Positions 1,651 through 14,470 of a stretch of 45,156 bases of DNA are shown in pieces. The notes beneath the pieces are model-generated. The model worked only from the letters and a program-made list of their open reading frames with translations, had not been told where the DNA came from and did no database searches. The stretch comes from a virus. The position numbers and the translations under genes were made by a program. The first letter of the stretch is position 1; every line of letters begins with the position of its first letter. The DNA is taken from the IMG/VR virus record IMGVR_UViG_3300036390_000004, positions 1 to 45,156 of that record, one strand, 5' to 3'.

Positions 1651-1874
1651 CCCCCCACCTCCCTCGGTTGGGGCGATGGGGTGCGGCGGTTCCACGAAGC
1701 GAGGCGGCGTTTGTCGTCCTCGCGGTCGGAGACGGGGACGCGGATGGAGCTGGCAATGCACTCTTCATCCTCATCAGCGTGTGGATGGACAAAGTAGGCG
1801 GTCGAGCGATTAGAGAATGTTTCGCTCTTCTCCAGTTCGCATCCGCAGAAAGGGCATGGGGCTATCGTGGTCAT
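1647..1874 (-). CDS. Lar-like restriction alleviation zinc protein
   Basis: A 75-residue protein with an N-terminal CPFCG knuckle, an internal His/Cys-containing stretch (VHPHADEDEEC) and a C-terminal WNRR. This is the pattern of Lar family (restriction alleviation) proteins common in prophages. Lar of the Rac prophage modulates type I restriction-modification in E. coli. Here only the zinc-ribbon-like layout supports that function. The start MTTIAPCPFCG at 1874 is chosen because it overlaps the preceding stop as ATGA. It would act early, when incoming DNA is exposed to host restriction. Confidence 0.65.
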   Translation of the reverse strand: MTTIAPCPFCGCELEKSETFSNRSTAYFVHPHADEDEECIASSIRVPVSDREDDKRRLASWNRRTPSPQPREVGG

Positions 1875-2644
1875 GCTGCCTCGCAATCATCAGCAATGGT
1901 CGCCTCGGCCGCGTGGCACAGGAGCGAGCATTCAATATTTGGTTCTTCGTCGTGGTTGCCGCGATTGGGGTCCAGAGCATCCAAGCTGATGCGCTCTTTC
2001 GTCTTCCTCTCGCGCCAGAAGTAGGAGCCTGGGCCAAGCTCACGTTGCAGCGCGGCCATCCTCTCGAAAACTTCAGGGAAGTCGCGCCTGATCTTATTCC
2101 AGTAGCCCATGCCGCCTTTGACGCAGCCGATGCAGTTATTGTTGTGGTAGCCAAGGCGATACATGATTGGCAGATCAATCCCGGCACGTTCGACCATAGC
2201 GAGGCAATCCGCCTTGGTCAGGCCGGCATCGATCAATGGGGTCAGGAGTGTCTGCTCAAAGTTTTGCTCGCGGAACCACTTGGCACGGTCGGTTTCTTCG
2301 GCGGTGTAGCCAAAGACGAGAATGTCTCCCGGCTGCTGGAATTCGTAAGTAGGGGCGCGCTTCAAGACGCCCGTGCACTTCGCACCGTTTTGGCCGACGA
2401 GGAACCGCTCCTTCTCGAAGACGTCCCATGTGTCGAGGTACTCAGTGGATCGCAGTGTCTCGATCGGATGATTGAACCATCGCTGGCAATCAGCGAGAAA
2501 GCGCTTGTTGTCCGGGTGTTCGCTGCCTGGGTCGCTGTAGGTGATGGCGATCCTGTCGCGGTCGAACTGTGCCAAGATCAGTTTGGTGGCGACAGCCGAG
2601 GCCGCGCCGCAGGAGAACCGGCAGACGATGCGGGGTTCCGTCAT
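1871..2644 (-). CDS. PP-loop (PAPS reductase-like) ATP pyrophosphatase
   Basis: A 257-residue protein of the adenine nucleotide alpha-hydrolase fold. The PP-loop reads FSCGAASAVA at residues 10-19. A later NNNCIGCVKGG segment gives a CxxC with a third cysteine earlier (KCTG), a layout seen in PAPS reductase/DndC-like proteins that may hold a metal or iron-sulfur cluster. Phages often carry this family, but the substrate is usually unknown; sulfur transfer to DNA or nucleotide activation are possibilities. It starts four bases inside the upstream gene. A second, divergent PP-loop gene lies at 13640..14470. Confidence 0.75.
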   Translation of the reverse strand: MTEPRIVCRFSCGAASAVATKLILAQFDRDRIAITYSDPGSEHPDNKRFLADCQRWFNHPIETLRSTEYLDTWDVFEKERFLVGQNGAKCTGVLKRAPTYEFQQPGDILVFGYTAEETDRAKWFREQNFEQTLLTPLIDAGLTKADCLAMVERAGIDLPIMYRLGYHNNNCIGCVKGGMGYWNKIRRDFPEVFERMAALQRELGPGSYFWRERKTKERISLDALDPNRGNHDEEPNIECSLLCHAAEATIADDCEAA

Positions 2645-3096
2645 TCGGTCGAGCCCTCCGTGGTGTCGAAGAGCGGGCGCAATTCGTCCAGCTTCTTGGT
2701 GACGCCCGCTCGATTGCAGAGCGAAAGGATGCGGGCCAGCGCTTTGGGAACGGGCATGTGGCCGGGAGCGCCAGCAGTGCAGGCGAGATACTTGATCTCT
2801 TCCAGAGCCGACAAATCCGCTTCGGGCTGCTCATTGCCGTTGAACTCGCCGTCCTCCGTTGAAAGGAACTGCGGCACCACATGTGATGAGGGTGGTGGGG
2901 GGCAGCGTCCGGCGCTGCGGTCGCAAAGCTGCAGCGCGGCAGCCGGATAAATCTGAACAGGACCATCCTCCCAGCCGAAAAGCTGAACAGCAACGCCGTC
3001 TTCGGTTTGTTGCGTGCCGTAGTGGCCAACGACGACACCTTCCCAGAAAGCGCCAGTGTGTTTGCAGACGTAGGCGCCCAGCGCGAACTCACTCAT
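2641..3096 (-). CDS. R67/DfrB-like (type II dihydrofolate reductase-like) protein
   Basis: A 151-residue protein. Residues 7-57 closely follow the SH3-like fold of type II dihydrofolate reductase (plasmid R67, DfrB). GAYVCKHTGAFW aligns with the R67 segment around K32 to W38, then GVVVGHY, then the active-site motif VQIYPAAAL at 47-55. K12, W18, Y26 and V47-Q48-I49-Y50 correspond to R67 K32, W38, Y46 and V66-Q67-I68-Y69. R67 works as a homotetramer with one pore and is insensitive to trimethoprim. The 90-residue C-terminal extension is absent from R67 and is unrecognised. The start MSEFALG at 3096 overlaps the ATPase stop. Homology is strong by eye; enzyme activity is inferred. Confidence 0.75.
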   Translation of the reverse strand: MSEFALGAYVCKHTGAFWEGVVVGHYGTQQTEDGVAVQLFGWEDGPVQIYPAAALQLCDRSAGRCPPPPSSHVVPQFLSTEDGEFNGNEQPEADLSALEEIKYLACTAGAPGHMPVPKALARILSLCNRAGVTKKLDELRPLFDTTEGSTE

Positions 3097-4177
3097 TGAT
3101 GAAGCCCTCCGCGTACTCAGCAGCGCCGTCGGCATCCAGCTCGCCACGGAGGCGGGCATTGTGGACGCCGAGGATCTTTTTCGCAGTCTCGATACTGTCC
3201 GCGCCGATCCGCGCCTTGAAGCCGTTGTGCGCGTCCTTCAGCCCGTCAGCATCGATCTCGGAAGCCAACGTCTTGTGATACTCGCGCAACATCTCGCGAT
3301 CATGGGCGGGGGCCGACTCTTGGGAGGAGGAGAGCGAGTCGGCCCCCTGCTCGTCGTGCCTGGGAGGAGGAGTGGCAGGACGAGATTGGGTGGTGGTGGA
3401 TTCGCCCCGGGCCCATGCGCGCAGCTTGCGGCCGCATTCGGCTGAGACGCGCTGGCCCGGCGGGAAGAACGGTAGATGCTGGCTCTGGATCTTGCCGTAG
3501 ACCGCCTGGCCGTTCTCGATCATCGGAACGCCCGGATTGTCCGGCGTCACCGTGAAGCTCATAGTCATCTCGAACATAAAGCGCTTCTCGCAGATCGGCA
3601 CCCAGCCGGCGGACTCGATCGCCGTTTTCTCGCGGTTCGAGCGCTCGTCGAAGACCTTCACGAACTTGATCTTCTCCTCGGCTCGTAGGCAGAAGATGAT
3701 GTAGGCGCGCACCTGGCGCAGCGGAGACATCAGCCGCGTCTTGTGGCGGGTCTTCGGCACTTTCCAAGCTGGAGCATTGAACTTGTCGATCTCCCAGCCT
3801 TCGAGCTTGTCGTAAGGCTTGCGGGCGAGGCGCGACACTTCCTCGTCGTGCATCTCCTGTAGCCCACCGACGCCCTCATACTCGTCCGAGGTGCTGTCGA
3901 TGATGATGACCTTCGCCCCTGCCCGCTCCGCCTTCTGGATTGCCTCGATGTAGGCCTCCGGTGTGAAGGGCGGGCGCATGTCCATGTGCTTGAACTTGAA
4001 CTGGTCGGCATAGTGCAGCATGCGCTTCGCCTCGGTGTCGATGGCATAGATCGGCTCGCCCTGGGCAAGGCCGGTGGCCATCGTGAGGGCGGAAAACGTC
4101 TTGCCCGATCCGGAAGCGCCGGCGATGGCGATAAGCAGGCTGGTGTCGTCGCGAGTGGCGTCGGTGAATTCGGTCAT
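3089..4177 (-). CDS. RecA-fold/AAA_24-type phage ATPase (Sak4-like)
   Basis: A 362-residue ATPase with Walker A GASGSGKT at residues 20-27 and a Walker B-like KVIIIDST at 89-96. The next 180 residues form a RecA-like core, and the C-terminal 110 residues are low-complexity and charged. Such proteins in phages act as single-strand annealing or recombination ATPases (Sak4 type) or helicase-like factors, often beside a PD-(D/E)XK nuclease as here (5362..6378). The start MTEFTDATRD at 4177 has GAGGAA about 8 bases upstream and overlaps the CtrA-like gene's stop as ATGA. A recombination role is inferred from the fold and neighbours. Confidence 0.75.
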   Translation of the reverse strand: MTEFTDATRDDTSLLIAIAGASGSGKTFSALTMATGLAQGEPIYAIDTEAKRMLHYADQFKFKHMDMRPPFTPEAYIEAIQKAERAGAKVIIIDSTSDEYEGVGGLQEMHDEEVSRLARKPYDKLEGWEIDKFNAPAWKVPKTRHKTRLMSPLRQVRAYIIFCLRAEEKIKFVKVFDERSNREKTAIESAGWVPICEKRFMFEMTMSFTVTPDNPGVPMIENGQAVYGKIQSQHLPFFPPGQRVSAECGRKLRAWARGESTTTQSRPATPPPRHDEQGADSLSSSQESAPAHDREMLREYHKTLASEIDADGLKDAHNGFKARIGADSIETAKKILGVHNARLRGELDADGAAEYAEGFINE

Positions 4178-4527
4178 GCTGCTTTCCTCGAGAAGTGTGA
4201 TCGATCCGCCAAGCCGTAGCCCTGCCCCCAGACTGTGTTGATCTGGATGCCGAAGGGACGCAGCTTCTTCCGGAGCTTGCAGACGAACACGTCGACGATT
4301 TTTGGCTCGACTTCGTCCTTCAGCTGATCGCTGTAGAGCGCAGCCATGATGGACTCTTTGGTCGCTACATCTCGCGTCATGAGGTGGGAAAAGACCCTCG
4401 ACTCGGAGGCTGTTAGGCGCCACTCCACGGGCGCATTCCATACGGGTGCCAGCGCGTTTTCCAGTTGTCTCACGCGCTCTTCCAGCAGAGCCACGCGATC
4501 ACGAAGCATTTCAACCATCTCATCCAT
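4174..4527 (-). CDS. CtrA-like winged-helix DNA-binding protein lacking a receiver domain
   Basis: A 117-residue protein. Residues 1-27 form a predicted coiled coil (VEMLRDRVALLEERVRQLEN). Residues 36-108 are an OmpR/PhoB-type winged helix whose recognition region, PKIVDVFVCKLRKKL then NTVWGQGYGL, is strikingly like the DNA-binding domain of CtrA, the alphaproteobacterial cell-cycle regulator. The phospho-receiver domain is absent and is replaced by the coiled coil, so DNA binding would not depend on phosphorylation and dimerisation could be constitutive. It could occupy host or phage CtrA sites (TTAA-type). Similarity to CtrA is seen; the regulatory role is inferred. Confidence 0.8.
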   Translation of the reverse strand: MDEMVEMLRDRVALLEERVRQLENALAPVWNAPVEWRLTASESRVFSHLMTRDVATKESIMAALYSDQLKDEVEPKIVDVFVCKLRKKLRPFGIQINTVWGQGYGLADRSHFSRKAA

Positions 4528-11704: not shown

Positions 11705-12181
11705 ATGAACGCGACCTGGACCGATACCGACATTTCGATGCTTCAGCGGCTCTGGAAAGAGGGGCATTCGGCAAGCGAGATCGGCAAACGCATGCGCCGG
11801 AGCCGGAATGCCGTCATGGGCAAGATCCATCGGCTGGCCGTTCAGGAAGCTGCCGGCGGCAAGCTGGTAAAGGCTCCCCGCGCAAATCTGCAGCGGCCAC
11901 CAGCGCCTCCGCGTAAGCCGAAAATGAAGCTGGTGCCTCCCGCGCCAAAGCCTGCCCTGCCTTCGGTGCAGCTCGTCGACGACAGCATCGTCAAGCCTCG
12001 TCCCCTGCTCATGAAGCTGTTCGACCTCGACAACAACGATTGCCGTTGGCCGGTCGAGGGCGAAAAGGCAAACACGCTATTTTGCGGTCACAACACGCAC
12101 GAGGGCAAGGTCTACTGCGCCTATCACTGCCGCACGGCCTATGCGCCGCGCGAGGTGAAGAGCGAGCGGAGGGCTGCCTGA
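11705..12181 (+). CDS. gcrA: GcrA-like cell-cycle regulator
   Basis: A 158-residue GcrA family protein. The N-terminal DNA-binding part is TWTDTDISMLQRLWKEGHSA followed by GKIHRLA. A proline- and lysine-rich linker follows (about 55-85). The C-terminal sigma-70-interacting domain has NDCRWPV, LFCG and VYCAYHCRTAY. In Caulobacter GcrA binds sigma-70 region 2 and activates promoters with methylated GANTC sites. A phage copy could redirect host RNA polymerase to host cell-cycle or phage genes. The gene is directly upstream of, and overlaps, a methyltransferase-like gene. Confidence 0.92.
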   Translation: MNATWTDTDISMLQRLWKEGHSASEIGKRMRRSRNAVMGKIHRLAVQEAAGGKLVKAPRANLQRPPAPPRKPKMKLVPPAPKPALPSVQLVDDSIVKPRPLLMKLFDLDNNDCRWPVEGEKANTLFCGHNTHEGKVYCAYHCRTAYAPREVKSERRAA

Positions 12182-13219: not shown

Positions 13220-13640
13220 GCACGTCTCTCACCACGCCGTCATCCGCTACGTCGAGCGCGTCCTCGGGCACGACGTCGAGCCGTGGCTCGTCGGCATGGA
13301 CATGGCCAAGGAAGAGGATAGGGCATCTCACTGCTGCATCATGGCAGGCGTGCACCTGGCTGCGGTCCGCGAGCTGATCCTGTGCCCGCCTGTGCGCACT
13401 GCCTGTGCCGCCGGCTTCAAGAACGTCACCGTGCGCTTCGAGGGGTTCGCCTACGTCATCCTCGACGGCAAGGTGGTCACCATCCTCACCGAGGACATGC
13501 GCGACCAGCAGTTCAAGGCTGACAAGAAGCTGCGCCACTTCTCCCGCGACGAGATGCGCCGCGAATTCCTGCGCAACAACAAGCGGCTCAAGGGCAAGAA
13601 CAAGGCCCGCGATCGGCGCCGTCTGGCGGAGGTGCAGTGA
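13212..13640 (+). CDS. Unknown protein with basic C-terminus
   Basis: A 142-residue protein. The first two thirds are mixed alpha/beta (HHAVIRYVERVLGHDVE, then VTVRFEGFAYVILDGKVVTIL). The C-terminal third is strongly basic (RREFLRNNKRLKGKNKARD), which suggests nucleic acid contact. A GGAGG lies about 10 bases before the ATG. The C-terminal beta hairpin with a stated start of decay at the basic tail gives no clear family. Confidence 0.6.
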   Translation: MSKHVSHHAVIRYVERVLGHDVEPWLVGMDMAKEEDRASHCCIMAGVHLAAVRELILCPPVRTACAAGFKNVTVRFEGFAYVILDGKVVTILTEDMRDQQFKADKKLRHFSRDEMRREFLRNNKRLKGKNKARDRRRLAEVQ

Positions 13641-14470
13641 TGCAGCAGCTCGACCTCCTCCGACAGCAGGGCACGAATGCGCCGATCAGGTTTGTTATCT
13701 TTGCCAGCTACGGGAATGACAGCATTGCACTCATACAGTGGGCGCATGAGAACAATCTTCATGGTGTCGCTGTCGTATTTACAGACACCGGATGGATGGC
13801 TGACGGCTGGGCCGAGCGCGTCGATCGCTGCGAGGATTGGGTACGGTCTCTGCTGTTTACGCCTTACCGCGCCAAAAGCATCGGCTTCCGCAGACTGGCG
13901 CATGACAAGTCGGGTTTCCCGACCCAGCAGTTTCAGTGGTGCAGTTACATCCTGAAGATCCTTCCCGGCAAGCAGTGGCTTGAACAGCATGACCCAGACG
14001 CTCGCGCAATATGCGTGGTGGGTGTCCGCCGGGATGAGAGCGAAGAACGAAAAGGCTTTCCGGAATACCTAGCCAACAGTGAAAATCATGGCGGCCGCTT
14101 CATGCTGGCGCCGTTTGCCACTTGGTCCGCAGAGGATCGCAACTCCCTTATCAAACGCGCTGGCTTCGATGTCCTACCGACACGATCGAGGGAATGTCGA
14201 TGCATCAACAGCAATCGCCAGGACATGCGACAGTTCACCGACAGAGACTGGAAGGCCATCAAAGACCTAGAGCAAGAGGTCGGTAAAACGATGTACCGAC
14301 CACACCGCCATATGGGCGCCGCCGGCGCAGATGAGGTCAGGAAATGGGCTGAGAGTGAGAAGGGTCAATACGTCCCGCCGGTTCCGGTCGAAGGAGCTGT
14401 TGAGCTTGAGGACGCCGAACAGGAGTTTGATTTCATGGGCACGGAATGCGCTGGGGCTTGCGGAGCATGA
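13640..14470 (+). CDS. PP-loop (PAPS reductase-like) protein, second copy
   Basis: A 276-residue protein of the adenine nucleotide alpha-hydrolase fold with PP-loop FASYGNDSIAL at 21-31. Further motifs are VVFTDTGW, a CSYILKILPG segment and CVVGVRRDES, the order seen in PAPS reductase-like phage proteins. It shares the fold but not obvious close identity with the product of 1871..2644. The ATG at 13640 overlaps the previous stop; a GTG one codon earlier is possible. The substrate is unknown. Confidence 0.8.
   Translation: MQQLDLLRQQGTNAPIRFVIFASYGNDSIALIQWAHENNLHGVAVVFTDTGWMADGWAERVDRCEDWVRSLLFTPYRAKSIGFRRLAHDKSGFPTQQFQWCSYILKILPGKQWLEQHDPDARAICVVGVRRDESEERKGFPEYLANSENHGGRFMLAPFATWSAEDRNSLIKRAGFDVLPTRSRECRCINSNRQDMRQFTDRDWKAIKDLEQEVGKTMYRPHRHMGAAGADEVRKWAESEKGQYVPPVPVEGAVELEDAEQEFDFMGTECAGACGA

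Follow-up and report, generated by a model that had tools for sequence, protein, structure and literature searches.

The gene described here lies near one end of a viral record of 45,156 nucleotides, which was analysed at its full length and is called the window below. The open reading frame spans positions 2641 to 3096 exactly as the initial annotation had placed it; that annotation omitted the strand, which is the minus one, the coding sequence (CDS) running from 3096 to 2644 and the stop codon occupying 2641–2643. Because a ribosome-binding site precedes the CDS and both flanking genes overlap it, we regard it as a real gene of a tight early operon, composed as follows.

1871–2644, minus strand: downstream PP-loop ATPase gene (phage PAPS-reductase-like; phrog_424, E 9e-52), whose ATG overlaps the CDS stop as ATGA
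2641–3096, minus strand: CDS of 151 aa comprising a DfrB/R67-type domain, a disordered linker and a three-helix C-terminal module (from ORF reading, profiles and model)
3089–4330, minus strand: upstream AAA ATPase gene (phrog_1366, E 1e-55), sharing 8 bp with the start of the CDS
3106–3110, minus strand: GGAGG ribosome-binding site, 9 bases upstream of the ATG at 3096

ParB-like and exonuclease-like proteins are encoded in the same neighbourhood as the AAA ATPase and the PP-loop protein, and the early-gene setting assumed at the outset is borne out by this operon. Several other features of the window deserve mention. The phage encodes two PP-loop PAPS-reductase-like proteins matching phrog_424, the second at 13637–14470 on the plus strand. 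At the left end of the window, a tRNA-Arg (CCT) gene at 62–138 adjoins an integrase gene at 209–1420, probably marking the prophage attachment site. A phage-encoded GcrA cell-cycle regulator is found at 11705–12181 (PF07750, E 1e-29); GcrA is typical of alphaproteobacterial hosts. Whole-phage DNA comparison, carried out to find the nearest relative, returned scattered short matches only.

Enzymes of the R67 type give very high trimethoprim resistance, and the protein bears on their origin and native role.

An R67-type barrel at the N-terminus

The sequence and model features on which the following discussion is based are listed in the order of the protein.

2926–3090, minus strand: R67/DfrB SH3-like barrel, residues 3–57 (PF06442, match to 1vie, model pLDDT about 92)
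3061–3063, minus strand: codon of residue 12 (K12, equivalent to R67 K32; alignment to R67)
3043–3045, minus strand: codon of W18 (R67 W38, at the dimer-dimer interface; placed by alignment, role from PMC9835603)
2944–2958, minus strand: VQIYP active-site motif, residues 47–51 (R67 66–70; alignment to R67)
2833–2871, minus strand: QFLSTEDGEFNGN, residues 76–88, the peptide found where the modules join, in a stretch predicted to be disordered (pLDDT < 50 at residues 70–90)
2659–2814, minus strand: predicted three-helix bundle, residues 95–146 (AlphaFold2, pLDDT about 59–86 by block)
2641–2872, minus strand: C-terminal cassette also present in contig L002, whose DNA is 85% identical over the whole stretch that starts at the joint motif and ends with the stop codon (DNA comparison)

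Pfam family PF06442 (DHFR_2; R67/DfrB) matches residues 3–56 (E 1.1e-10, 41.6 bits against a curated cut-off of 25), a sequence search of the PDB retrieves the R67 chains (1vie) at E 8e-8, and the PHROG match is to phrog_31682 (E 1e-8), a family of unknown function. The barrel shares 48% identity with R67 over 52 residues; the alignment scores 109, a value reached by none of 5000 shuffles, among which the maximum was 60. The equivalences initially claimed are correct: K12, W18, Y26 and V47-Q48-I49-Y50-P51 align with R67 K32, W38, Y46 and V66-P70. Residue W45 of R67 is not kept, nor is it in the published active DfrB homologues (PMC9835603). The protein further diverges from R67 by a one-residue insertion before GPVQIYP and by the changes S65 to P and Y55 to V. 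Against NCBIfam NF000331 (trim_DfrB, the resistance DfrB), it scores 46 bits for a cut-off of 137; because of this low score, its length of 151 aa and its location in a phage early operon, the gene is not classed among the resistance dfrB genes.

The AlphaFold2 single-chain model, built from 41 sequences, contains a confident barrel over residues 1–57 (pLDDT about 92). A structural comparison with the PDB gave seven matches at E < 0.001, all of them R67 entries (TM-score by target 0.88–0.91, rmsd 1.1–1.3 Å), and the predicted model superposes on 1vie with a TM-score of 0.89 and an rmsd of 1.2 Å. The structure prediction that had been advised as a check against R67 recovered, at the level of this model, the SH3-like five-stranded barrel. 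A search of BFVD with the same model also returned several uncharacterised phage proteins of 60–70 aa (TM 0.7–0.8, about 20% identity), including proteins of Lactobacillus phage P1 and Edwardsiella phage PEi20, which are possible distant relatives of the barrel.

Membership in the DfrB/R67 (DHFR_2) family, together with the corresponding predicted fold, is virtually certain. The resemblance was originally noticed in an alignment made by eye only, which leaves room for a chance or wrong-frame match; the probability of such a match is negligible, as it is refuted by the Pfam score above the curated cut-off, the structural match, the shuffled alignments, the ribosome-binding site and the operon overlaps.

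The C-terminal tail and its joint

In whole-protein scans against Pfam, PHROG and NCBIfam, nothing in the 94-residue tail scored above cut-off, in agreement with the unrecognised C-terminal extension, put at 90 residues, of the initial annotation. A whole-protein search found one contig, L002, whose 232-aa ORF matches residues 63–151 only and has an unrelated front half. In DNA, L002 and the window share 232 bp at 85% identity (2641–2872), extending from the QFL codons to the stop, and have nothing else in common. Eight more ORFs, from phages or prophages (L003, L004, L005, L006, L008, L010, L026 and L049), contain the 13-residue peptide [Q/S/K]FLxTEDGEFNGN, and their front and back parts differ; those with a named host genome all belong to the Hyphomicrobiales (Neorhizobium, Rhizobium, Pseudaminobacter and Phyllobacterium).

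Ten phage copies of EDGEFNGN differ at the third position of every one of its eight codons, and a scan fixing only FLPTEDGE regained FNGN in the four copies that it recovered. The sequence is thus kept as a peptide, and a DNA-level site as the cause of the match is ruled out. Since the tail DNA recurs in L002 behind an unrelated front and the joint peptide itself recurs, the window protein is an in-frame mosaic with a clean DNA breakpoint, and its tail is not specific to DfrB. Module exchange is centred on the [Q/S/K]FLxTEDGEFNGN peptide. The search for homologues with the same extension, which had also been proposed, succeeded for the tail, found in L002, but not for the pairing of barrel and tail. 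Hyphomicrobiales genomes searched with the window protein contained the barrel in 4 out of 398 cases and the full architecture in none. We found no earlier description of a barrel combined with an EDGEFNGN tail and consider the protein a new, divergent member. The clean breakpoint shows that it is built from exchangeable modules.

A second mosaic set (L061, L065, L074, L086 and L014) is characterized by recurring PAQTEQQP and APIAQTAPQ sequences and by a barrel at or near the C-terminus; these proteins are analogous to the EDGEFNGN proteins.

Phage relatives and their gene neighbourhood

Relatives were collected from IMG/VR with the pattern [EH]xG[SP]VQIYP, in which VQIYP is therefore pre-selected. 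The scan identified 224 contigs encoding the barrel, and 22 annotated phage records carry relatives as well, such genes being already labelled dihydrofolate reductase in public genomes. These numbers uphold the earlier proposal that phages are a reservoir of the fold. The loci read amount to 81 (80 from the pattern scan and one added) and represent 57 distinct domain sequences; equivalents of K32, W38 and Y46 are present in all 81 IMG/VR domains. Conservation of VQIYP was judged, not on the scan set, but on 18 homologues found without motif selection, and 17 of them keep it. The exception, L221, reads VQIYS and has lost the lysine. This Hyphomicrobiales DfrB-like gene (L221:1486–1956), devoid of the K32 equivalent, is fused to a common phage domain and constitutes a natural case of active-site loss. 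Among the phage relatives, the ligand-contacting K32 and Q67 vary no more than the structural glycines do. The near-invariance of the pore residues, seen in 17 of the 18 unselected homologues, argues for a native function of the pore. The survey indicates hundreds of phage DfrB domains with the pore residues kept, and no drug selection on them was evident.

The barrel occurs either on its own, as a protein of 60–67 aa, or joined through its N- or C-terminus to diverse partners such as MazG-type pyrophosphatase (L133, L099), coiled-coil, zinc-ribbon and membrane-segment proteins. The MazG-type partner in L133:4111–4791 is identified by phrog_5658 (E 4e-58); the tail of L099:5419–6060 is similar by eye only. 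By percentage, the phage barrel of the set closest to R67 is that of L069, with 78% identity over 54 residues.

A gene for FolE, QueD, QueE or a TGT-like protein is located within 4.5 kb of DfrB in 43 of the 81 loci, near-duplicates included; the TGT-like gene was named by eye from its DSGGFQ motif, Pfam and PHROG tests having given nothing. On large contigs, the gap between DfrB and QueD often measures some tens or hundreds of bases (36 bp on two contigs, of 117 kb and 102 kb, and 705 bp on one of 367 kb), and the QueD proteins concerned are as little as 39% identical. Stand-alone DfrB genes of aquatic phages often stand directly beside QueD, FolE and QueE (L055–L135, e.g. L124, L106, L105, L075 and L088). 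The reverse association is rare: DfrB is near one of 80 close QueD loci, and this locus is once more that of contig L066. It is present in none of 50 QueD records, a set outside which L180 falls; this zero leans on the locus count, because the family was detected in none of the control genomes. These two counts do not support a fixed place for DfrB in the 7-deazaguanine cluster.

Many metabolic genes are grouped in the DfrB-QueD region of these phages, and hot-spot insertion combined with lineage could explain the association, so that DfrB beside FolE, QueD and QueE in large aquatic phages represents a confounded but testable lead. An origin of the barrel in the FolE-QueD-QueE pathway to the 7-deazaguanine precursor, where it would have served phages as a pterin reductase or as a pterin-binding enzyme, is held to be improbable. 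Such an enzyme might, for example, have kept a tetrahydropterin intermediate reduced; the barrel would later have been carried as a module into mosaic proteins of phages, the window protein among them, and would separately have become the trimethoprim-resistance enzyme. A survey of 7-deazaguanine in phages has no mention of DHFR or R67 (PMC6884629), and the literature searched contained no paper that links DfrB with this pathway. The pterin genes FolE, QueD and QueE offer a concrete neighbourhood in which a native DfrB reaction could be tested.

Possible functions and known systems

The explanation that we favour, and hold to be probable, is that this early-operon gene of a temperate phage of Alphaproteobacteria encodes a mosaic protein, in which a true divergent DfrB barrel, probably tetrameric and capable of low-rate reduction, carries a swapped tail. 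The N-terminal 57 residues constitute this true, though divergent, R67-type barrel and would most likely assemble as R67 does, into a homotetramer around a single pore. This pore may bind a nicotinamide cofactor and a ligand of the reduced-pterin type, and would probably catalyse a slow, trimethoprim-insensitive reduction of dihydrofolate. An R67-like tetramer with some DHFR ability is, taken by itself, reasonably likely; the tail could hinder its assembly, and the divergence of the barrel from the resistance enzymes and the lack of resistance from DfrB-H3, described below, count against it. The C-terminal half is a separate module joined in frame at the recurring FLxTEDGEFNGN joint, and for this reason barrel and tail must have been united by recombination.

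It had initially been suggested that the protein supplies tetrahydrofolate for phage DNA synthesis, and this is not supported. Profile searches of the record found no ThyA (PF00303), FolA (PF00186) or PTPS, which rules out a folate-DNA-synthesis gene set in this phage; a set of the T4 td-frd type, associating DHFR with a phage thymidylate synthase, is likewise absent from the window record. A dedicated phage dihydrofolate reductase providing tetrahydrofolate for dTMP and DNA synthesis, as T4 frd does with td, would be in keeping with the intact active-site residues, with the published DHFR activity of related proteins (PMC9835603) and with the absence of FolA-type DHFR from all 50 DfrB records, although the latter is rare (2/50) in QueD-phage records too. 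We consider it unlikely: not only does the window phage lack a thymidylate synthase, but ThyA is found in only 4 of the 50 DfrB phage records, many of which are fragments that make such absences weak evidence; DfrB-type enzymes are catalytically primitive (PMC9835603), and the CDS overlaps a PP-loop ATPase gene rather than nucleotide-synthesis genes. The barrel might instead be a non-catalytic scaffold for tetramerisation or ligand binding that multimerises or positions its tail, any DHFR activity being adventitious. Its fusion to many unrelated parts, of the MazG-type, coiled-coil, zinc-ribbon and membrane-segment kinds, fits this proposal, and an adventitious activity in DfrB ancestors has been put forward in the literature (PMC9835603). 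It is made doubtful by the many stand-alone phage copies of 60–67 aa, which have nothing to scaffold, and by the invariance of K32 and Q67.

Phage DfrB homologues with extra domains and resistance activity are already known, and the window protein is a new divergent member of this group. Lemay-St-Denis et al. (2023) reported two phage proteins in which extra domains accompany the barrel, DfrB-H3 (Pseudomonas phage) and DfrB-H4 (Vibrio phage). DfrB-H4 made Escherichia coli highly resistant to trimethoprim, and its isolated barrel also gives resistance; DfrB-H3 kept the motif but gave no resistance, which the authors attribute to a lack of soluble expression (PMC9835603). In the same study, DfrB-H5 from Methylobacterium is an active tetramer whose DHFR activity depends on the same residues, and the native function of distant DfrB homologues is stated to be unknown (PMC9835603). 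dfrB2-like genes were also reported in four freshwater viral contigs (Moon et al., PMC7265639), and eight dfrB in lytic phages in a 2025 study (PMC12466917).

The window protein resembles DfrB-H3 and DfrB-H4 in being a phage barrel within a longer protein with unrelated extra parts, and in conserving VQIY, K32 and W38 but not W45 (PMC9835603); it differs from them by its N-terminal barrel, its EDGEFNGN tail module and its divergent GPVQIYP sub-group. With R67 (DfrB1, 1vie), it has in common the predicted barrel fold, the active-site residues and the sequence identity given above, whereas R67 is a stand-alone resistance enzyme of 78 aa lacking the inserted residue and the proline at position 65. 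The closest annotated phage relatives are 'dihydrofolate reductase protein' genes of Rhizobium phages (Schitoviridae, Demetervirinae), e.g. RHph_Y38 and RHph_N38, with about 45–56% identity and the same VQLxGxExGPVQIYP variant; unlike the window gene, they encode proteins of about 80–100 aa without the EDGEFNGN tail, belong to another phage family and are situated beside the virion RNA polymerase gene. The nearest barrel found, in L135 (IMGVR_UViG_2894228515), is 60–62% identical and shares the GPVQIYP variant, but forms the C-terminus of a different ORF.
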